Of a DNA stretch of 45,212 nt, positions 290 to 16,499 are shown one piece after another (position 1 is the first letter of the stretch; each line of letters opens with the position of its first letter). A model generated the notes under the pieces. The model was not told where the DNA came from. It ran no database searches and was given only the letters and a program-made list of their open reading frames with translations. Where the stretch lies: contig JAHFCH010000025.1 of assembly GCA_023249635.1 (NCBI GenBank), positions 1-45,212 on the forward strand, given 5' to 3'. Made by a program: the position numbers and the translations under genes. This DNA comes from Fibrobacterota bacterium. GTDB lineage: Bacteria; Fibrobacterota; Fibrobacteria; UBA11236.

Positions 290-3200
290 ATGAAAAGCAA
301 TAGCCAAGGCGTGAGTACCGAGTTAACCGGAGGTGCGGGGTTTACCTTCGAAGACGGCTGTTTGGCAATTTATCTATGCGCCTTACTTGGGGAAGGGCCT
401 TGTCGAGGGCTTCCAAATCGGACAGTGGTAAGAGTCGCCTCGCAACGAGCAAGTGCTGGCGAACCAATGGATGACATTATCGTCGAAGCAGAAAGCCCCA
501 ACAGCGAACGTGCCAAATTGAGCCTCCAGGTCAAGAAGGCATTGACGGTTAGCAGCGCGGAATCCAATCAGGATTTCCGTTCGATTATTCTGGGAGCCTA
601 TGCCACGATAACGAAGCCCGAATTCCGGGCGGATATAGATCAAGTAGGGGCAATAACGGGCAGCATAAGGGATGACTCCAAACGCGCAGTCGAAACGGTC
701 TGCACATGGGCAAAAAGCCAGGACACTTCTGATACCTTCCTTGGGAAATTTTCACCCGGTGTGTCAAATAATGAGCATCGAAAATTCCACAACGCAGTTC
801 GAGACATCTTAAGGGACTCTATACCAGCCAACCGTCTGGATACCGAAGTCCATCGCCTCCTCAAGCATTTCGTCTTAATGGAATTCGACCTACTCCATGA
901 TGGAGCAACGGACGAAAGCAATGCCGTTGCGCTTCTGCGCTACTGCCTCAAGCCAATTGATGCAACTCGTTCCGCAGATCTCTGGTCTTGCCTTCGAGTC
1001 ATCGCAAGGGAGGCGGCCGGTCAGGGAGCGGCGTTTAGCCGGCCCAACCTTATCCCGAGGCTGCATGGGTCATTTCGCCTGGTTGGCGCCATTTCACTCC
1101 GGAAAAGTCTGGACCTCTTGTTCCAAGAGGCTCAGTTAGGTTTAAAAGATATTGCCGTCGATGTAATCGGATCCGTCATTCCTCGAACAAAGGTCATCGA
1201 AGAAACCAGGGACAAACTAAAACAGCATAGCTTCGTGCAAATAATCGGAATCCCTGGAGCCGGAAAATCGGCGGTCCTTAGACTTCTGTGCGATGAGTTT
1301 TTCAAGGCTGGCACCGGCTTGTTCTTGAAATCGGATAAACTTTCCTATTCAAGTTGGTCAGCATACGCCATGGCGATCGGTTTGGATGCCGTCTCTCTTG
1401 AGTCCTTGCTTCTTGAAATTACCCTTTGTGGGACCCCAATTCTTGCCATTGATGGCCTCGACAGAATTTCCCCTGAAAGCCGAGGCATAGTCAGAGATAT
1501 CCTGAATACCATTCTTGGAAACCCTGTATTGAAATCAGCTTGGTCCATTGCCGCTACGGTCCGTAGTGGAGGGATCGAGGACATAAGAACTTGGTTGCCA
1601 TCGAATCTTTTCGACGAGTCACAGCCTGCAATGGTTGAAGTCAAAGCATTCGACGATGAAGAGTCAAGGGCCCTAGCCGATGCGCTGCCAGCGCTTCGCG
1701 CGCTACTTTTCAGCGAAAATGAGCGCGTTCGAGAAATTTCCCGGCGCCCGTTTTTTGCGGCGGTAATCGGGAAGTCTTTTGGTAATACGCAGGGTTCCCC
1801 AGTAGAAGCGAATTCGGAAATTCAGTTGATCGATGCTTGGTGGGTGCGTGGTGGGTACAACGCCAACTCGAACCGGATTCTATACCGCACAGAAGCCTTG
1901 CGGCGTCTGGCTGCCTACGGATCCGCAACTTTGGGACGAGGTATTTCGCTTGAAGGGACCATCGATCTCGGCGCGATAACCGAATTAAAAGCCGATGGTA
2001 TCCTTAAGGATGGGGCACCAGGAAGTGTCCGGTTTTCCCACGACATCTTTTTTGAGTGGGCGTATCTTCATGTTTTAATGGGTCGTGAATCTGAATGGCC
2101 CGATGAAATTCGGCGAGTCGGGGAACCACCTGTTCTCGGCCGAGTCGTCGAACTCCTCTCACAAAAGGCATTGGCTTCCTCTCCCGCATCTTGGGGAAAC
2201 AGTCTTACCGCCCTCGAAACTTCGGACCTACGTCCTCAATGGGCCCGCGCATGGCTCCTCGGACCGATTGGCCACTCTGAATTTCTGGATAAGGCTACGC
2301 CTTTCACTGATGCCTTGTTTTATGAGGGTAGTGATAGAGTTCGGCGGTTAGCGGTTTGGTTCCAGGCTGAAAAGACTCGCCCGAACCCTGCAATCCTTGA
2401 TGGCTCAAGTGGAAAAGGACTCTCACTATCAGAGGCAGTGCGCCTCGCTGATCTATATGCTTGGCCCTCAGATATCCGGTCCTGGCAAAGAGGCTGCCAG
2501 TGGTTCATCGACAACATAGGTAGATGTCCTATTGATGTGATCCCTGAAATCGTAGCTGTCTTTGAGGTTTGGCAGAACGCTCTGGCGGATCACCCGAACG
2601 CTATCTCCCGCCAAATTATGGTCCTTGTCCACTCTTGGCTGATCGATATCGAAGACTTGATCCATGCCGAAGATTACCGAAGGTCCGGAGAAGGAAAGTG
2701 GCATACTCTCCCTGAAGGCGGAATGAAGGAATTGGAACAACGCCTTCGGCATCTATTTGTCCGGTCAGTACGAACGCTACCCAACGAGGTTAAGGACTAC
2801 CTTTCCCGAGTTGCCGACAGGCCCCGTTTAAGGAAAGAGTGCTTCAAGGATGTCTTGACTTTTTCTCCCATACTCGCTGAAAAAATTGGACCGGTCCTCG
2901 TGAGCTTTCTGCTAGCCGAATTGAAGCAAGAATTGCCAAATGATGTTGCAAAGCGACCTATGCCAAGGGGAATGTTTAACCAAGGACCATCGATCCACGA
3001 TCGACTAGAGCTTGCTCTAAATCCGAATACTCATGCTTTTTTCCCCGCTTCTCCTCTTTGGCAGCCATTCCCGGCGCTATTTCAATCTTCACCAGAGGAT
3101 GGGCTATACGCGGTTCGTGAGCTGTCCAACCATGCCATCACCGCTTGGCGACAGTTCTGCGCTAACGATTGGGAGCGTCCAAGTACTCCGATCCCATTGG

Positions 3201-5602
3201 TAATGGACTTCCCTTGGGGCCTCCAGAGTTTTTGGGGAAGTCACAAAACTTATACGTGGTTCCGGGGCAACGGTGGACCAGGCGTCCTTGCCTCGGCACT
3301 GATGGCGTTAGAAAAATGGGCATTCTCGGAAATCGAAAAGGGGGTCGACGCGGACGGTCTAATCCGGAAAATACTTACCGGGCATGAGTCTTGCGCCGTT
3401 CTCGGCATCGCTGTTGCCATCGCTCTTCACACCAAAAGGGTGTCCAATACTACATTGCCGTTTATTTCTTCTCAGGCTCTATGGTGGTGGGACATAGCAC
3501 GCATGGGCTATGACCGAACTGCATCGAGTATGCTTCTATCATTCCATGAGACTCAGGATCATATCGCGGCTCTCCGTGAACAAAATTCTTGGGAGGTGCG
3601 AAAATCAGAAATTCGAGACTTGGCGATGCGTTTCGTAATTTGCAATGATGAAACCCTTGCGAAGGCGGCCCAATCCGTCATCCAGGATTTCCCCAAAAAC
3701 ATCCACTTTGCAACGGAAGAAGAAAAGAAAAACAGTGATGATACTGATTCAGTCCTTCGCCAAGCTTTGATCTGGGCGGAATGGGGTAAGCCGGAAAACT
3801 ATACTGCGAGGCGCTTTGAAGGAAACGGCCAAGTTTTAATCGAACTGAACAATCCGACGGCCCAAGACCCAGATGTTGTAGCGTCACGGGAGCGAGTCCA
3901 GACTCTTAACCAGCAACTAGGCCTATCCCTTTGGGCCGACGAAAGTTTCTCCGGCTCTCAGATATCTGCCAGAATGTCTCTGATTCAGGCACTGGAAACC
4001 GCCCACTTGCTTGAAGGTCCAGAGCTTTTCACTCAACCCGTCGGGATGCTGAGCTTCTCTGATCAAGCTGTGGCCGCCGTGGCCGCTGTGGCGATGAAGT
4101 TCTTCTCCTCAATTCCAGAGGCAGAACGGCAATGGGCGGTCGATGTCATTTTTCGCGTGACGGAACTTCCCGAACCAATGGACGAAGAATTTTATTCAAT
4201 GTCGGAAAATCCATACCATGTTGGCCTTCACGCTTTACGGGGCTTGGTATTCATGATACGAGGAAAAATCAGAGTCCTTGAGGCTCAGCAAGCGTTGATC
4301 CGATTAACCGCTCATCCAAGGGAATCCATTTCGAAAAACGCTGTCAGCGCCATCCTCGGTCTCTGGGATGTAGACAAACGCTTTTCGTGGATAGGGCTTA
4401 ATTTGGCTATCAACCTTTCAACCGGGTATTGGAATGGAAACCCGGACGAGTCCGGGCAGAATGATCTAGAGAATAACGCTAAGGCTGTTGAAGCAGCACT
4501 GGCTAAGATGGTATCAGGAGACAATTTCGATTTCAAGTTATCCCGAATACCTCCCGCGTGGGAGTTTGCACAGGCAAGGCCCATTCGGGGGCCGTTCAAC
4601 GAAGAGCAACCAGCCGGAGCACCACATTGGCGTAGTCCTGACACGCATTTTGATCACCGCTACCTATCCTCATTGCTTAGAAGCATTCCATTCAAAGAAA
4701 TCCTTCAAGAGCATTCAATGGCGAGTCAGTTTCTGATATTCTGCAATACCATGACCGAATGGACTGTGGAACGGATTTCACCAACGTGGGACACCCGAGG
4801 TCAAAATCGTAGGGATCGCGAAACAAACATTTTCGAATGGAAGATGGATCTGTCCCGCTTCCTTGGACAAGTTGCCATTCATCTTGAACCCGCCCAAGTA
4901 AGAACCGTTTTCTTGGATGTCATAGCCTCCCTGGATGATGACGATTATTTTGACATGCTCAGTCCATTCCTAGACATGTTGGGGTGTGGCATTATGGATG
5001 ATGCAGTCTTTCCGGAAAATGCGATAGCCATTATGGGAGACTGTCTGCCTAGGATTTTAGCCAGCGACGATTGGTCAATGTTGAGAAGGCGGAGTAGCCG
5101 CCATTTGGATGAAGACCTTTCTAAAATTGTCAGCTCACTTTTCTTCGTCCAGGTTGGCGAAAGCAAAGCACCTAACTCCGCAAGGTTCGCAAATGGTGAC
5201 TGGAGCGAGGTGGGAAAGATCCTTCCACTAGTGGACTCCGTTGTCATGTCGTTCGGAGACATCCCAAGGGTGGCTTCGTTGTTCCTCACGCTCTGTGAAA
5301 GGGCTGGCGCGAACTACCCAATGGAAAAATTTCTTGATCATATGCATGGGCTATTCAAACTGCAATCAAGCACACCAGTAGGCTGGAGGGAAACTTATTT
5401 ACCCAATCGAATCGCATCCTTAATTCAAAACTTTGCTACGCGTACGCAGCCTTTGCCTCTGGAAAAAGCACAATCCATGCTGCGCCTTCTCGATAGGCTA
5501 GTGGACATGGGAGATCGTCGGGCAACCGCACTTCAAACCAGCGAACTCTTCAAGAATACCCGAGCAGATTCAGCCCGAGAATTGACATCTTCAACCTTAT
5601 GA
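290..5602 (+). CDS. STAND NTPase with N-terminal PD-(D/E)XK nuclease domain
   Basis: This is a 1770-residue protein. Residues 15-110 contain an acidic pair in PMDDIIVE (D61/D62) and a LQVKK strand (Q80, K82). That is the D...QxK pattern of Cap4/Mrr-like PD-(D/E)XK nucleases. A P-loop NTPase follows, with Walker A GIPGAGKS (320-327) and Walker B ILAIDGLDRI (384-393), as in STAND regulators. The remaining ~1300 residues look like alpha-helical repeat structure and would be the sensor arm. By family precedent (Avs-like STAND nucleases) the likely role is ligand-triggered oligomerisation and DNA cleavage in antiphage defence. There is no clear Shine-Dalgarno before ATG 290. The 3' end overlaps the convergent gene by 6 bases. 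The domain assignment is good; the ligand is unknown. Confidence 0.8.
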   Translation: MKSNSQGVSTELTGGAGFTFEDGCLAIYLCALLGEGPCRGLPNRTVVRVASQRASAGEPMDDIIVEAESPNSERAKLSLQVKKALTVSSAESNQDFRSIILGAYATITKPEFRADIDQVGAITGSIRDDSKRAVETVCTWAKSQDTSDTFLGKFSPGVSNNEHRKFHNAVRDILRDSIPANRLDTEVHRLLKHFVLMEFDLLHDGATDESNAVALLRYCLKPIDATRSADLWSCLRVIAREAAGQGAAFSRPNLIPRLHGSFRLVGAISLRKSLDLLFQEAQLGLKDIAVDVIGSVIPRTKVIEETRDKLKQHSFVQIIGIPGAGKSAVLRLLCDEFFKAGTGLFLKSDKLSYSSWSAYAMAIGLDAVSLESLLLEITLCGTPILAIDGLDRISPESRGIVRDILNTILGNPVLKSAWSIAATVRSGGIEDIRTWLPSNLFDESQPAMVEVKAFDDEESRALADALPALRALLFSENERVREISRRPFFAAVIGKSFGNTQGSPVEANSEIQLIDAWWVRGGYNANSNRILYRTEALRRLAAYGSATLGRGISLEGTIDLGAITELKADGILKDGAPGSVRFSHDIFFEWAYLHVLMGRESEWPDEIRRVGEPPVLGRVVELLSQKALASSPASWGNSLTALETSDLRPQWARAWLLGPIGHSEFLDKATPFTDALFYEGSDRVRRLAVWFQAEKTRPNPAILDGSSGKGLSLSEAVRLADLYAWPSDIRSWQRGCQWFIDNIGRCPIDVIPEIVAVFEVWQNALADHPNAISRQIMVLVHSWLIDIEDLIHAEDYRRSGEGKWHTLPEGGMKELEQRLRHLFVRSVRTLPNEVKDYLSRVADRPRLRKECFKDVLTFSPILAEKIGPVLVSFLLAELKQELPNDVAKRPMPRGMFNQGPSIHDRLELALNPNTHAFFPASPLWQPFPALFQSSPEDGLYAVRELSNHAITAWRQFCANDWERPSTPIPLVMDFPWGLQSFWGSHKTYTWFRGNGGPGVLASALMALEKWAFSEIEKGVDADGLIRKILTGHESCAVLGIAVAIALHTKRVSNTTLPFISSQALWWWDIARMGYDRTASSMLLSFHETQDHIAALREQNSWEVRKSEIRDLAMRFVICNDETLAKAAQSVIQDFPKNIHFATEEEKKNSDDTDSVLRQALIWAEWGKPENYTARRFEGNGQVLIELNNPTAQDPDVVASRERVQTLNQQLGLSLWADESFSGSQISARMSLIQALETAHLLEGPELFTQPVGMLSFSDQAVAAVAAVAMKFFSSIPEAERQWAVDVIFRVTELPEPMDEEFYSMSENPYHVGLHALRGLVFMIRGKIRVLEAQQALIRLTAHPRESISKNAVSAILGLWDVDKRFSWIGLNLAINLSTGYWNGNPDESGQNDLENNAKAVEAALAKMVSGDNFDFKLSRIPPAWEFAQARPIRGPFNEEQPAGAPHWRSPDTHFDHRYLSSLLRSIPFKEILQEHSMASQFLIFCNTMTEWTVERISPTWDTRGQNRRDRETNIFEWKMDLSRFLGQVAIHLEPAQVRTVFLDVIASLDDDDYFDMLSPFLDMLGCGIMDDAVFPENAIAIMGDCLPRILASDDWSMLRRRSSRHLDEDLSKIVSSLFFVQVGESKAPNSARFANGDWSEVGKILPLVDSVVMSFGDIPRVASLFLTLCERAGANYPMEKFLDHMHGLFKLQSSTPVGWRETYLPNRIASLIQNFATRTQPLPLEKAQSMLRLLDRLVDMGDRRATALQTSELFKNTRADSARELTSSTL

Positions 5603-8307: not shown

Positions 8308-9804
8308 TTAGAGGGCTTTAAGATTCGGCTTGCCGGGCTCGTGGACGGTCATCAAATCGAATGGCTGCCGGTAGGTGACGCGGATTCTTCCATCCCGCAA
8401 GGTGGAGCGGGAGCAGAGGATATGAAGCAGCGTCCGTTTTTGGATCGGGGATTGTTTCCGGTAGAGTGCCGAGGCCTTTCTAGCGAGACTTACCAGACCT
8501 TGCCGCAGTGCTGGGTCGATTTTCTCCGCTTCCACACCGGGGCGAAGGCTCGCACGGAGCCGCTTGATTTCCTCTCCCCACTCCAGGGACTTCTTCTTCC
8601 AAAGCGCGTCCGGGAGCGCGCCATCGAGGTTGGCCTCCAACCCTTTCTCTATGCGGTTTTCGAGGGCCTCAATGCGCTTTGCGACGGCATCGGTTTTTTC
8701 CTTTTGGAAGGCTGCATCTTCGTCGGCGGATGCCGCCAGGTCGGCCTCAACATCTTCCATCACGTCGAGCCCCACCTCGACCGCCTCCACGACGGCTTCA
8801 AACTGCCGGTCCAACTCCTCTTCGCGGAGAACTGCCTTCTGGGAGCATAGGCCGCGCCGATGCGTGCAATGGTAGTAGACGTATTTCCCCTTCTTCATTT
8901 CCGCCGTGATGGCGCAGCCGCACTCCTCGCAGGTCAAAAGGCCCGTGAATGCGAACGTATGCTTCTGCTGCTTGGGCCGGTTGTGGTCCCTAAATGCGGC
9001 CTGCACGGCTTCAAACAATTCTTCGGGGATGAGGTGCGGATAGCTCCCCGTATAGGTTTCCCCGGCGAAATGAAAACGGCCGATATAGAATGGATTTTTC
9101 AAAACCTTCTCCAACGTCGTCGGTGGGATTTTCGGCTTCGAGGGTTGGAAGGTATATCCCTCCTCGAATAGATGTCGGCTCAAGCGGTCCAGCGAGTACG
9201 CGCCTGTCGCGTAGGCTTCAAACATCTTCTTCACCCACGGGCCGTGAACGGGGTCGATATCAATTCCGCGCGAGTCTCTGTTGTTCCGATACCCCACGGG
9301 CGGCCGACCGGGAGGTAGGCCCTTGCTGGCCTTCTCCAGCATGCCCTTGGCCACCTCCTCGCGAAGATTGTCGATGTAGTTCTTAGCCATCAAGACCTTG
9401 ATGCCGTGGATGAACTTGTCATGCGACGTGGAAAGGTGGGAGAGGCGCGTTCCTTCCTTGACCAGATGGATTTCGAGCGCGAGTTCATCGAGCGCGACGT
9501 AGTCCTTGAAATTCCTATAGAGCCGGTCCGTCTTTTCCACCAGCAGGTTTTGCGCGGAAGGGTGCGCCTTTAGGAAGGACAGCATCTCTCCGAACTGCGG
9601 ACGGCCCACCTTCTTGGCCGTCTCCACGTCAATGAATTCGCGCAGGACCCTGATCCCCTCTTTCTCCGCGAACGCGCGTAGTAGTTTGATCTGCGCGTCA
9701 ATGGAATACCCTTCGGCCTGCTCACGGCTCGACACGCGCGCATAGAGGACGGCATCGGTTCTGTGCGCGGGTTCATTCTCGGAACGGATCTCTCTACGGG
9801 CCAT
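8308..9804 (-). CDS. Large serine recombinase
   Basis: This is a 498-residue site-specific recombinase. The resolvase domain (17-155) has VLYARVSSREQ, with S25 as the expected nucleophile, and VEKTDRLYRN. It is followed by the recombinase DNA-binding domain (about 165-275; KGLPPGRPPVGY and LKNPFYIGRF), a zinc ribbon (C292, C295, C313, C320), a long coiled coil (about 330-410) and a C-terminal tail. This is the full architecture of phage and ICE integrases. The ATG at 9804 overlaps the stop of the small upstream gene by 11 bases, indicating coupling. It probably integrates and excises the surrounding element. No att site could be identified by eye. Confidence 0.93.
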   Translation of the reverse strand: MARREIRSENEPAHRTDAVLYARVSSREQAEGYSIDAQIKLLRAFAEKEGIRVLREFIDVETAKKVGRPQFGEMLSFLKAHPSAQNLLVEKTDRLYRNFKDYVALDELALEIHLVKEGTRLSHLSTSHDKFIHGIKVLMAKNYIDNLREEVAKGMLEKASKGLPPGRPPVGYRNNRDSRGIDIDPVHGPWVKKMFEAYATGAYSLDRLSRHLFEEGYTFQPSKPKIPPTTLEKVLKNPFYIGRFHFAGETYTGSYPHLIPEELFEAVQAAFRDHNRPKQQKHTFAFTGLLTCEECGCAITAEMKKGKYVYYHCTHRRGLCSQKAVLREEELDRQFEAVVEAVEVGLDVMEDVEADLAASADEDAAFQKEKTDAVAKRIEALENRIEKGLEANLDGALPDALWKKKSLEWGEEIKRLRASLRPGVEAEKIDPALRQGLVSLARKASALYRKQSPIQKRTLLHILCSRSTLRDGRIRVTYRQPFDLMTVHEPGKPNLKAL

Positions 9805-11564: not shown

Positions 11565-11996
11565 TCAATCCTTTCCTTTTACGGTGTGAGTATGAGAAGT
11601 GGCCGGATCGCCCCCGGCCGAAGGCAAATGGTTTTCAGATGAGGGCGAAGGCCCCTTTGGGGGCCGCCCGCCTTTGGAAACGTCCCGCGCCAGGGACCGC
11701 GCCAATCCCATGACGAGTTGTAATTGGTTCTCCGACAAGGTTGCCAGGAGGCGGCCGACCTTGCTGAGGCGGCGTTCGCCTTCGGCGGGCCGCTCCTTCT
11801 TCGGCTTTGGCTGGAGCGCGTTCTGGCCGAGGACGCTCCGGGAAATAATGCTGTCCATTTGCGCCTTGACCTGGCCCTCGGTCGCCTCCTTCTTCACCCG
11901 TTCCGCCAAAGCGCGAACGCCTTTCAGAGACGCGGAAAGCGCTTGGTGGAGTCGTACCACGTCCTCGGCCATGCTCATTGTCTTTGCCGTCCTCAT
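11565..11996 (-). CDS. Hypothetical helical protein
   Basis: This is a 143-residue protein. The first ~100 residues form charged helices (AEDVVRLHQALSASLKGVRA, then LLATLSENQLQLVMGLARSL). The last 40 residues are a disordered Gly/Pro/Ser tail. The start ATG overlaps the stop of the coupling-protein gene (ATGA, 11993-11996), with GGAGG seven bases upstream, so translation is coupled. Its role is unknown; a coupling-protein partner or mobilization accessory protein would fit the position. Confidence 0.65.
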   Translation of the reverse strand: MRTAKTMSMAEDVVRLHQALSASLKGVRALAERVKKEATEGQVKAQMDSIISRSVLGQNALQPKPKKERPAEGERRLSKVGRLLATLSENQLQLVMGLARSLARDVSKGGRPPKGPSPSSENHLPSAGGDPATSHTHTVKGKD

Positions 11997-13993
11997 ACTT
12001 CACCCTCCGGTTTCTTGTCCTTGATGAACCGGCCTAAGGGGGAATCCTTCCCTCCCGCTGGCCGAGGTTTTTTCGGCTTCGGGGGAGGGGGGCTATCCGT
12101 GCCCTCCCCCGGATTTTTGTCGTCACTCTTTTCCCCGGGGCCATCCGGACCCGGTTCAGTTTTACAGGGCCTCTCCGCGTGGCTTAGAAGCGCCCGTTCC
12201 AGGAAAGCCTGCAACTCGGCATCGGAACACAATTCACTGGGGTCCACGTACCCGAACCGGACCGGGGCTTTCATGAGACGGCCTTCGCCATCTTCCAGGA
12301 TTCCGAATCCGTACCCTTTGGGGAGGGCTAAGTCGGAGGCCTGGACGTATTTCTCCAATTCCTCCCGGTAGGTCACGGTCTGGTTGTCGCGGCCATGGAT
12401 GTGGGTTTTGTCGGTCATCTGTCCGATGGATAGGGATTTCTTGACCACCGTCCGCTCGCCCATCTGCTCTGCTGCCCAGGCCGCGGTCTCGGCATTAATG
12501 TTCAGGAAGAATTTCTGGTAGGTGTTGTCGACGAGTTCATTCATAAAGGAGCCGGCGAGATTGGGCCGCTCGAGATTTCCCACGGACTGGTGCGCGATGA
12601 GGAATCCGATTTTCGAGGACCGACACTTGTCGAGCATGTTGATGAACTCGTTATAGGCAAAGCTCCCGAACTCATCCAGGTAGCCTTGTACCCCTATCGT
12701 GGACTGGGCCTTGCCCGCCTGGCGGGCCCCGGACAATAGTTGCAGTTCCATGATGATCATCCGCCCCAAGGCCCGTGCCTGGGGGCCTTTGGACGAGGTG
12801 TCCAAATCCAGGTACAGGTTTCCGGCCTTTTCGATCAGGTCGCGCAGATTAAGGGTGCGCCCTTTGGGGTTGTCGAAGATGTGAGAGAGGCTTTCATCCA
12901 AAACCAGGCTCCCCACGTGAGCCGCCAAGCCGGACAAGGATTCGAGATCCGTATCCGCCAGTTCGTGCAAGAGGGCCAGGTTATCCGGGTTCTTGCACCG
13001 CTTCCCAAGTTGGTCGAGAAGCGCCTTGGGGCGCTTCAGGAAGTGGTACAACTGCTTCAGCATGATGGTTCCGTCTATTTCTGGTTCGGTCCGCATGATG
13101 CGGAAGAACCCCATGAGCCAGCTTTCCTGGAATGGACGGTAATGCGGGTGATTGATCTCGGAGGAATTCATGAGCTTCTTCGTCAGGCTGTCCGCATCGC
13201 CAAACAACAGCGGATCATAGGCAAGGGATTCCTTATGGTGAAAAGAAAGGAGAGCGGTCGGGACGTTTCCTTTCGCCCGCATCGCTCCCGTGGCCAGGAC
13301 TTTCAACAAATAGAGATCTGCCTTCCCGTTTAAAGTCACGGTCGCAAAATGGGAGGATGCGGCATCCTCAATCAGCATGGGGGCGACGATGGAATAGGAT
13401 TTGCCTGAGCCTGTATTTCCTAAGACCTGCATATGCCGGTACCGCTGCTCCTCCCGGATCACGATATTGAAGTAGTCTTCCGGCTTCTCGACCTTTCTCC
13501 CATGTCGCTTATCGGTTTCGAGGTCCGAGGCGAATCGTTTGTAATAGCCGAGAATGCGAATGTTGGGCGCCTTCTGCGCCCAAGCCGCGAGGTAACTTTT
13601 CATTTTCTCTTCCTGCCGATTGAAGACCGGGGGAAAGGGATTCTTCGGAGAATCGTCTGCAATATTCCTGTGGAGAAGTCCCTGCCAGAAGCGCCGGAAC
13701 GCCCGTCCGGGTCCGGGAATCCGGGCGGTGCGATAGCTGACGCCGACCGTGAAGAAAAGGAGCGGCCCCGCGAACAGATAGGGGTGGTAATGGATGTACC
13801 AGAAATAAAATGGGCTCTTATAGATGCGGAGGCCGAGGTATGGAAAATCGACCAGGAACTGCATAACCATCCTCGCATACCGCCGATCCAGGTAGTAGGT
13901 CAAAAGGGCGACGAGCAAAAGCGGAATCAAAAAATCGAAGAGCAGTGTTTTCTTTATTGGGTAGCGGGCTTTTTGAATCTCATACGTAATCAT
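11993..13993 (-). CDS. Type IV coupling protein (VirD4/TraD/TraG-like)
   Basis: This is a 666-residue membrane ATPase that recruits DNA-protein complexes to a type IV secretion channel. It has two N-terminal TM helices (about 18-34 and 71-87). Then come Walker A LGNTGSGKS (191-199), Walker B GYLDEFG (437-443), and the IAHQS segment (466-470) of T4CPs. Further on is a TraD/TraG-like C-terminal domain with NELVDNTYQKFFLNINAETA. The last 60 residues are Pro/Lys-rich and disordered. AAGGAAG precedes ATG 13993. No relaxase or other T4SS genes are visible, so the element may be mobilizable rather than self-transmissible, or extend outside the window. Confidence 0.88.
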   Translation of the reverse strand: MITYEIQKARYPIKKTLLFDFLIPLLLVALLTYYLDRRYARMVMQFLVDFPYLGLRIYKSPFYFWYIHYHPYLFAGPLLFFTVGVSYRTARIPGPGRAFRRFWQGLLHRNIADDSPKNPFPPVFNRQEEKMKSYLAAWAQKAPNIRILGYYKRFASDLETDKRHGRKVEKPEDYFNIVIREEQRYRHMQVLGNTGSGKSYSIVAPMLIEDAASSHFATVTLNGKADLYLLKVLATGAMRAKGNVPTALLSFHHKESLAYDPLLFGDADSLTKKLMNSSEINHPHYRPFQESWLMGFFRIMRTEPEIDGTIMLKQLYHFLKRPKALLDQLGKRCKNPDNLALLHELADTDLESLSGLAAHVGSLVLDESLSHIFDNPKGRTLNLRDLIEKAGNLYLDLDTSSKGPQARALGRMIIMELQLLSGARQAGKAQSTIGVQGYLDEFGSFAYNEFINMLDKCRSSKIGFLIAHQSVGNLERPNLAGSFMNELVDNTYQKFFLNINAETAAWAAEQMGERTVVKKSLSIGQMTDKTHIHGRDNQTVTYREELEKYVQASDLALPKGYGFGILEDGEGRLMKAPVRFGYVDPSELCSDAELQAFLERALLSHAERPCKTEPGPDGPGEKSDDKNPGEGTDSPPPPKPKKPRPAGGKDSPLGRFIKDKKPEGEV

Positions 13994-15182: not shown

Positions 15183-15232
15183 GAGCGGTATTCCACCGCT
15201 CCGAAATGTTTTTCACCTTTTTACAAAGGTGA
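15183..15232. repeat. Two adjacent inverted repeats upstream of the replication-relaxation gene
   Basis: The first is GAGCGGT-ATTCC-ACCGCTC (15183-15201, 7-bp stem). The second is TCACCTTT-TTAC-AAAGGTGA (15213-15232, perfect 8-bp stem). Both lie in the 5' region of the gene at 14036-15139, within locally AT-richer DNA. They may be an operator, an origin of transfer or replication, or a promoter-proximal RNA structure. Confidence 0.55.
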
Positions 15233-15358
15233 GACAAAAGGCCTTTCCGGTTTTGGAAAATCGAGTATTGTATGGGAGTATTCGGTTTTCGTTTCAGCAT
15301 TCTGGATTTGGATTGAATGGCTTTCGGAGGACCCGCCTTGGGGTCCGGCTCTGTCGTA

Positions 15359-15772
15359 TTTTGCGCGAGCAAAATGCAGCCCCGTCCCCGGGGCTAACCC
15401 CTCCCCCTGGCGCGCAGCGACAGGCGCCGAGCGAAGGCGAGGCCCATTACGGGGGCCCCAGAGCGCCGCCGAAACCTTGGAACAAGGTTGAGGGAAAGGA
15501 GTGAGGATTGGCGCGGGCCTCGCGTAAGCGAGGAACGTGACAACCGGAGCGACGACAGGCGCGGCCGGACCTGGGGCAAGCCGACTCCCGCAGGGAGGCG
15601 GATTGGCCTGGGTACGGCTGGGGTTCCCGTAATGGGCCGCGTATGCGGCGAGGCGCTAAGTCGAAGACTTAGGGGAGGGGTTCTAGCGCAACCCCCGCGG
15701 GACGGGGGTGCGCTAGGTTTAATCGTCCCCGGTCAAGACCGGGGGCAAGCGCCGTAGGCGCCTCTGCTGCAT
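15359..15772 (+). ncRNA. Candidate large structured RNA (HEARO/OMEGA-like?)
   Basis: This GC-rich stretch lacks a credible ORF but has dense nested pairing. Local hairpins: 15359-15374 (GCGA loop), 15378-15395, 15473-15489 (GAA loop), 15518-15533 (GUAA loop), 15656-15672, 15683-15716 (14 bp with one bulge), 15727-15744 and 15749-15761. Long-range helices: 15396-15406 with 15672-15682 (11 bp), and 15441-15453 with 15626-15638 (13 bp). A possible closing helix pairs 15374-15380 with 15766-15772. Two GNRA loops on the plus strand suggest that orientation. The size and GC-rich multistem shape recall HEARO/OMEGA RNAs of IscB elements, but no IscB gene follows, so that identity is only a guess. Confidence 0.6.
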
Positions 15773-16059
15773 GCAATGGAATTCAAAAAGCCCGACGAGA
15801 CCTGTTTGGATGAGGGGCCCGATTTGCCCGACTGTTTGACGCCGAGCGGAGCGGATGGGCCGTTCACCCAAGAGGGAGCCAAAGGATTCTATTCGTTTGC
15901 GCGGCAAGGAAAGCCGAGAAAGGATTTGACAATGGTTTTTTCTGGGGCGCCGTCAAACATTGCCTATCGCCCGCATTGTTTTGGGGGATGCCTGTGGTTT
16001 CGTTTCAAGGAGGGCTTGGCTTACTCGGCGCCCTTGGACCGAGGTTTTCGGCGCGGGTC

Positions 16060-16493
16060 CTATGCCTGGCCTTGAAACTCTGGGATCACGGTCCGCAATA
16101 GTCTAAGCCGCTGCCGGAAAAGCTTTCCCCGGCGAAGCTTCTTCCTTTGCTGGGCAAACCAGGCGGCAAGTGCTCTCTCTTCGACATCCGGGCTTAGGAC
16201 GCTGGTTTTTTGCCGGAGTGCTTTTTTCGAAAGGGCAAGAGGAATCGATAGCGCCGCATCCAGAGGGATTCGATGGGATCCCATTCGAATCCGAGGGCTT
16301 CCAGAAGGCGGATTCGTTCCTGAGAGAGAATGCCCCTTCTTCGATACTCCCCTTGGGCGCTGCACCAGTTTGCCAAAGGATCCGAGGGGATTGCACCCTC
16401 TCGCATCGCGGGCCAAAGCGAAGAATGTTTTTTCCGGAACGCTTTCAAGACATGCTCCTTGATGCGGTCCATGAGACGAGCGACGTACGACAT
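16060..16493 (-). pseudogene. Helicase-associated (HA) domain protein, frameshifted
   Basis: Two overlapping minus-strand frames together give two HA-type repeats. The first frame has LANWCSAQGEYRRRGILS, then LLEALGFEWD, W and RYRFLLPF. The second has ALAAWFAQQRKKLRRGKL, then RLRLLRTVIP. This is the L..W...QR...r.G.L...r...L pattern of helicase-associated domains. The frame is lost at a T6 run (16206-16211; A6 on the coding strand). One more A would join them as HSGKKTSVLSPD. It is either a sequencing indel or a decayed gene. HA-domain proteins are commonly mobile-element cargo; here it lies beyond the candidate RNA. Confidence 0.65.
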
Positions 16494-16499
16494 GGGCAA

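Follow-up and report, generated by a model that had tools for sequence, protein, structure and literature searches.

A large folded element with arms in common with integron attC sites in a mobile and defence island of a Fibrobacterota bacterium

We analysed a stretch of 45,212 nucleotides from a Fibrobacterota bacterium (contig JAHFCH010000025.1 of assembly GCA_023249635.1), hereafter the window, in which a folded element is located some 0.2 kb upstream of a gene block that runs leftward; a defence-like region lies to the right of the element. P0004 (14036-15151, 371 aa), which opens the block, adjoins the element, and searches of 168 phylum genomes, plasmids and viral contigs returned no relative of it. 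Near the element, a 101-aa open reading frame at 16194-16499 carries a helicase-associated domain (HA, PF03457) and is possibly a gene remnant. Defence-like genes occupy 290-5602 and 16817-45174; they include an Avs4-like gene (a weak assignment), a RelA/SpoT plus RyR gene, two adjacent HATPase proteins, and AAA plus RyR, NACHT, DUF4062 and TPR proteins. Inspection of a repeat pair at 13965-13983 and 15776-15794 gave nothing. The main features are as follows, where L005 and G004 denote the two partial relatives described below.

8308-9804, leftward block: large serine recombinase
11993-13993, leftward block: TraG/TraD-like coupling protein
Same leftward block: RadC
15378-15748, +: supported element, from the fold and the parts common with the BLAST relatives L005 and G004
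15378-15395, +: 5' hairpin AGCCCCG-TCCC-CGGGGCT; the G004 stem at the same place differs (GTCCGG/CCGGAC)
15397-15406, +: outer helix, 5' strand ACCCCUCCCC, about 11 bp with GGGGAGGGGU at 15672-15682 (from the fold)
15406-15424, +: arm A, CCTG-G-CGC-GCA-GCG-A-CAGG, 16/19 identical to attC arm A with one paired change
15441-15459, +: inner long helix, 5' strand GGCCCAUUACGGGGGCCCC, partner GGGGUUCCCGUAAUGGGCC at 15620-15638 (from the fold)
15473-15489, +: hairpin AACCTTG-GAA-CAAGGTT; in G004, ATCCCG-GGAA-CGGGAT
15507-15543, +: arm B, TTG-G-CGCG, hairpin with GUAA loop, CGTG-A-CAA, homologous to attC arm B of the genus integrons
15585-15597, +: hairpin CTCCC-GCA-GGGAG (from the fold)
15620-15638, +: inner long helix, 3' strand GGGGUUCCCGUAAUGGGCC, partner at 15441-15459
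15656-15672, +: hairpin CTAAGTC-GAA-GACTTAG, mostly kept in L005
15672-15682, +: outer helix, 3' strand GGGGAGGGGU, partner at 15397-15406
15683-15716, +: hairpin CTAGCGC...GCGCTAG; L005 keeps the outer stem, with one double-sided change, and not the inner stem
15725-15746, +: hairpin GTCCCCGGT-CAAG-ACCGGGGGC, kept in L005

The elaborate fold proposed in the initial annotation is real. Folded as RNA, the + strand of 15359-15772 has a minimum free energy of -252.6 kcal/mol compared with a dinucleotide-shuffle mean of -195.2 +/- 6.0 (z -9.5), a value matched by 0 of 100 shuffles, and its partial relatives keep several of the hairpins and show some compensatory changes; the - strand has a z of -8.3. 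Ten hairpin loops are present in this structure, including the two with GNRA loops noted before (GCGA at 15360-15373 and GUAA at 15518-15533), and half of the ten are GNA triloops, four of them with a C-G closing pair. The 11-bp and 13-bp long-range helices that had been described both occur in the + strand fold. The inner one belongs to a 24-nt inverted repeat with 88% complementarity and contains two G-T pairs, at which the opposite strand would have A-C mismatches. The terminal helix of the same description fared less well: AUGCAG/CUGCAU, like the outermost hairpins at 15360-15373 and 15749-15761, is absent from both relatives, and the supported element is therefore taken as approximately 15378-15748, or about 370 bases. 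When this core was folded as DNA, the z was -11.4 for the + strand and -6.7 for the - strand, which marks the + strand as the better structured one. Open reading frames across the element are mechanical only; family tests covered the downstream frame (15776-16075, 99 aa), which matched no Pfam or PHROGs family.

BLAST revealed two partial relatives, and the copy in the window is the one complete copy known. L005 (G000:C74), which lies in the same genome as the window, is a partial second copy that corresponds to the 3' half and directly follows an IS21-type istA/istB pair, while G004, a genus mate, has the 5' half at 79% identity beside an AbiEii-like gene; these gene names were read from translations. 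The G004 copy swaps the 5' hairpin stem GCCCCG/CGGGGC for GTCCGG/CCGGAC and AACCTTG/CAAGGTT for ATCCCG/CGGGAT, both swaps being read by eye because machine alignments do not keep both stems in register. In L005, three 3' hairpins retain their outer parts, and one pair there has changed on both sides; with two sequences, this is not significant alone. Across the 6.75-Mb genome, BLAST found one full and one partial copy; a further 25-bp match (L003, G000:C134, 96% identical) falls in an apparent coding region and was dropped. We built two covariance models, R1 from the window and L005 (3' part) and R2 from the window and G004 (5' part). In 168 phylum genomes, R1 scored strongly only at the two known copies, and weak R1 and R2 matches outside the genus (E 0.008-0.5) were treated as chance. 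BLAST against plasmids and phages gave no match, and exact-pattern scans of viral contigs gave nothing or a single match within a phage coding region. The same kind of scan of 84,980 genomes returned 31 matches, a number of the order that chance would produce; these were rejected, being no more window-like than shuffles (a few slightly exceed ten shuffles). As nothing in these collections went beyond chance, the element appears restricted to the genus within the reach of these searches, though diverged copies would escape the exact patterns.

The R2 model connected the element with integrons. In the phylum genomes it matched its two founding sequences and, in G002 and G005, clusters of loci spaced 1-2 kb apart. 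Among three genus mates it matched attC sites of integron arrays, every time through one and the same arm, the best E-value being 2e-9 in 88 kb. The clustered loci are gene-cassette arrays with palindromes of about 140 nt bounded by CCGTATAAC...GTTATACGG, whose L boxes, such as GATTAACCTGC/GCAGGTTGAATC, carry an extrahelical G; the open reading frames between the palindromes lie mostly on the opposite strand. A full integron integrase (TIGR02249, over the cut-off) is encoded in four of the six genus genomes (G001, G002, G003 and G005), and in G002:C53, G003:C17 and G005:C13 the distance from it to attC sites is no more than about 4 kb. Judged from their sequences, these arrays are chromosomal integrons. 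No integrase over the cut-off was found in G000, which is an incomplete MAG, or in G004, the two genomes with the window-type element.

Cassette arrays were seen at L068 (G002:C29), L069 (G005:C81), L070 (G002:C114), L128 (G002:C53) and L129 (G003:C17), and their attC sites, about 140 nt long with a two-arm terminal structure, are well conserved in sequence. The window's own genome has lone, diverged attC-like sites at L127:166-307 (G000:C258) and L126:2194-2359 (G000:C110), with no neighbouring array in the stretch seen. The length of the terminal structure varies within the genus, and at L068:8285-8456 and L126:2194-2359 attC arm B is longer by an inserted stretch of about 30 nt; such insertions make expansion of the terminal structure a plausible route.

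The reverse comparison used R3, a covariance model of twelve genus attC sites built without the window. R3 matched 15507-15543 of the window with 30.1 bits (E 5.5e-5 in 65 kb), scored 32.4 bits (E 1.7e-5) at the homologous position in G004, and gave no other match at E<=5 in the window and its relatives. Both matches cover model positions 71-107, which form one arm of the attC terminal structure and 37 of the 140 positions; genome-wide, the E-values become 0.0057 and 0.0014, respectively, and all E-values are rough, the models having been shortly calibrated. In an alignment of 14 sequences, this 37-nt arm B keeps 97.8% of pair cells, and 7 of its 13 pairs have changed on both sides; the covariation score was reached by 0 of 500 shuffles, and slid versions were at most 49% paired. 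The outer CC/GG pairs of the attC arm are TT/AA in the window and G004, and the inner G.A mismatch is kept. The attC arm A, CCTGGCCCGGAGGGACAGG, has a counterpart at 15406-15424 that agrees at 16 of 19 positions, as did 1 of 300 shuffles (0 of 300 for the G004 copy). Both arms occur in the same order and on the same strand, the attC bottom strand, in the element and in attC. Outside them there is little resemblance: by sequence similarity alone (ungapped or gapped), the whole window element scores 22 against attC, within the shuffle range (maximum 23), and the G004 copy scores 28, above its shuffle maximum of 21. Taken together, we find strong grounds for common descent of the arms, which is the simplest account.

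Sites of the attC type are defined structurally by their boxes, extrahelical bases, variable terminal structure and preference for the bottom strand (PMC8946536). The element folds as a single strand with a strand preference, and its arms A and B resemble the terminal arms of the genus attC. However, no paired AAC/GTT boxes were found in 15201-15950 on either strand at >=6/7 pairing, using a script that finds a control attC. The only L-like bases in the window, GCTAACCCC/GGGGTTCTAGC, are kept neither in G004 (5' strand) nor in L005 (3' strand), and the L-box reading of them was dropped on that account. No cassette array or intI gene was found nearby: R3 gave no other attC match in the window, and the incomplete MAG yielded no integron integrase over the cut-off. 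On the tests run, all at the sequence level, the element is not an attC: it has no paired AAC/GTT boxes, its L-box-like bases are not kept and its spacing differs.

GNA triloops are unusually stable in DNA. In the element, the arm A loop GCA becomes GTA in G004 with its form kept, and attC arm A mostly ends in GGA or GGAA. A crude scan found no sigma-70-like promoter and no terminator-like site on the + strand near the element. The triloops and the absence of such sites favour folded single-stranded DNA over RNA, which we hold with moderate confidence; GNRA and GNA loops occur in RNA too.

The main rival makes the element a standalone non-coding RNA, structured and of a new family. The + strand would be transcribed, and arm B would have passed to attC sites or come from them. 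The RNA fold of the element (z -9.5), its two GNRA loops and the hairpins kept in L005 and G004 all agree with this, and we consider it possible; against it stand the missing promoter-like and terminator-like sites in the crude scan and a DNA fold even farther from shuffles. For one particular RNA, the orphan or remnant OMEGA/HEARO RNA suggested in the initial annotation, little speaks except the general shape. At gathering scores Rfam matched nothing in the window, at E<=5 it matched nothing in the 801 bases around the element, HEARO (RF02033) went unmatched at E<=1 across the six genus genomes, and IscB or TnpB, already reported missing, was absent among the 25 window proteins scanned with Pfam, so that we regard this identity as hardly credible; tRNA and tmRNA identities were likewise rejected. 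The more general description given there still stands: a large conserved structured element that belongs to no known family and sits in a mobile-element setting. The initial annotation missed the attC link and the possibility that the molecule is single-stranded DNA and not RNA.

A single-stranded site of the mobile element, oriT-like or a single-strand initiation site with an attC likeness borrowed through one arm, would suit the position directly upstream of the block that encodes the TraG/TraD-like protein and the large serine recombinase, and would suit the strand-specific DNA folding. Both relatives adjoin other genes, however, no relaxase was identified in the window, and the adjacent P0004 has no relative for comparison, which leaves this reading improbable. 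Even less can be said for a mundane repeat, such as a REP/BIME cluster, or for GC-rich DNA that folds by chance. High GC content and the partial copies fit, but REP/BIME sequences are short palindromes with many copies per genome, and the finding of a single full and a single partial copy in 6.75 Mb speaks against the REP cluster that had been named as a competing outcome; the structure lies far beyond shuffles and arm B shows paired changes over 14 sequences. We therefore consider this very improbable.

We favour, at a probability of about one half, an oversized multi-arm element related to attC, most likely folded as single-stranded DNA from the + strand, in a mobile and defence island. The reciprocal R2 and R3 matches, the covariation in arm B, the identity in arm A and the shared strand count for this reading, as do the strand-biased DNA fold, the GNA triloops and the lack of promoter-like or terminator-like sites in the crude scan. 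Counted against it are the genome-wide R3 E-values, a whole-element similarity within shuffles, the match to 37 of 140 attC positions, the single complete copy, and the fact that neither a recombinase nor a binding protein has been linked to the element. More tentatively, the element may belong to a new class of large folded nucleic-acid elements that have core arms in common with attC and are a possible source or off-shoot of it.

In the attC-related reading, the element would share ancestry with the two-arm terminal domain of the chromosomal-integron attC of the genus, and its attC boxes would have been lost or never present. Its + strand would most likely act, or have acted, as folded single-stranded DNA, by analogy with the attC bottom strand, and could be exposed upon replication or transfer of the host island or mobile element. 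Without paired AAC/GTT boxes, the element is unlikely to be an integron-integrase substrate; it may have diverged to serve another single-stranded-DNA-binding protein, or it may be a decaying derivative. Because one complete copy is known, we infer this role, and weakly.

To our knowledge, the origin of folded integron attC sites is an open question, and an element with recognisable attC arms outside the box-and-cassette layout provides a concrete relative for comparison. If the attC-related reading is true, a structured "RNA" that looks like an orphan can turn out to be a site of folded DNA, which is a trap for RNA-discovery screens.

Among known systems, HEARO/OMEGA RNAs (RF02033) have a comparable large multi-hairpin structure and mobile-element setting, whereas the window element has no covariance-model match at any tested threshold and no IscB or TnpB. 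Like oriT and single-strand origins of plasmids and ICEs, the element folds in a strand-specific manner upstream of a coupling-protein block; it differs in that no relaxase or nick site is identified here and its relatives lie outside such modules. Compared with the genus attC sites (G002, G003 and G005), it is about 370 nt rather than about 140 nt long, has no paired AAC/GTT boxes and has L-box-like bases that its relatives do not keep, and carries an extra long helix and extra hairpins outside a cassette array, whereas its arm B is homologous, its arm A is recognisable, and both stand in the same order and on the same strand with similar GNA/GNRA loops.
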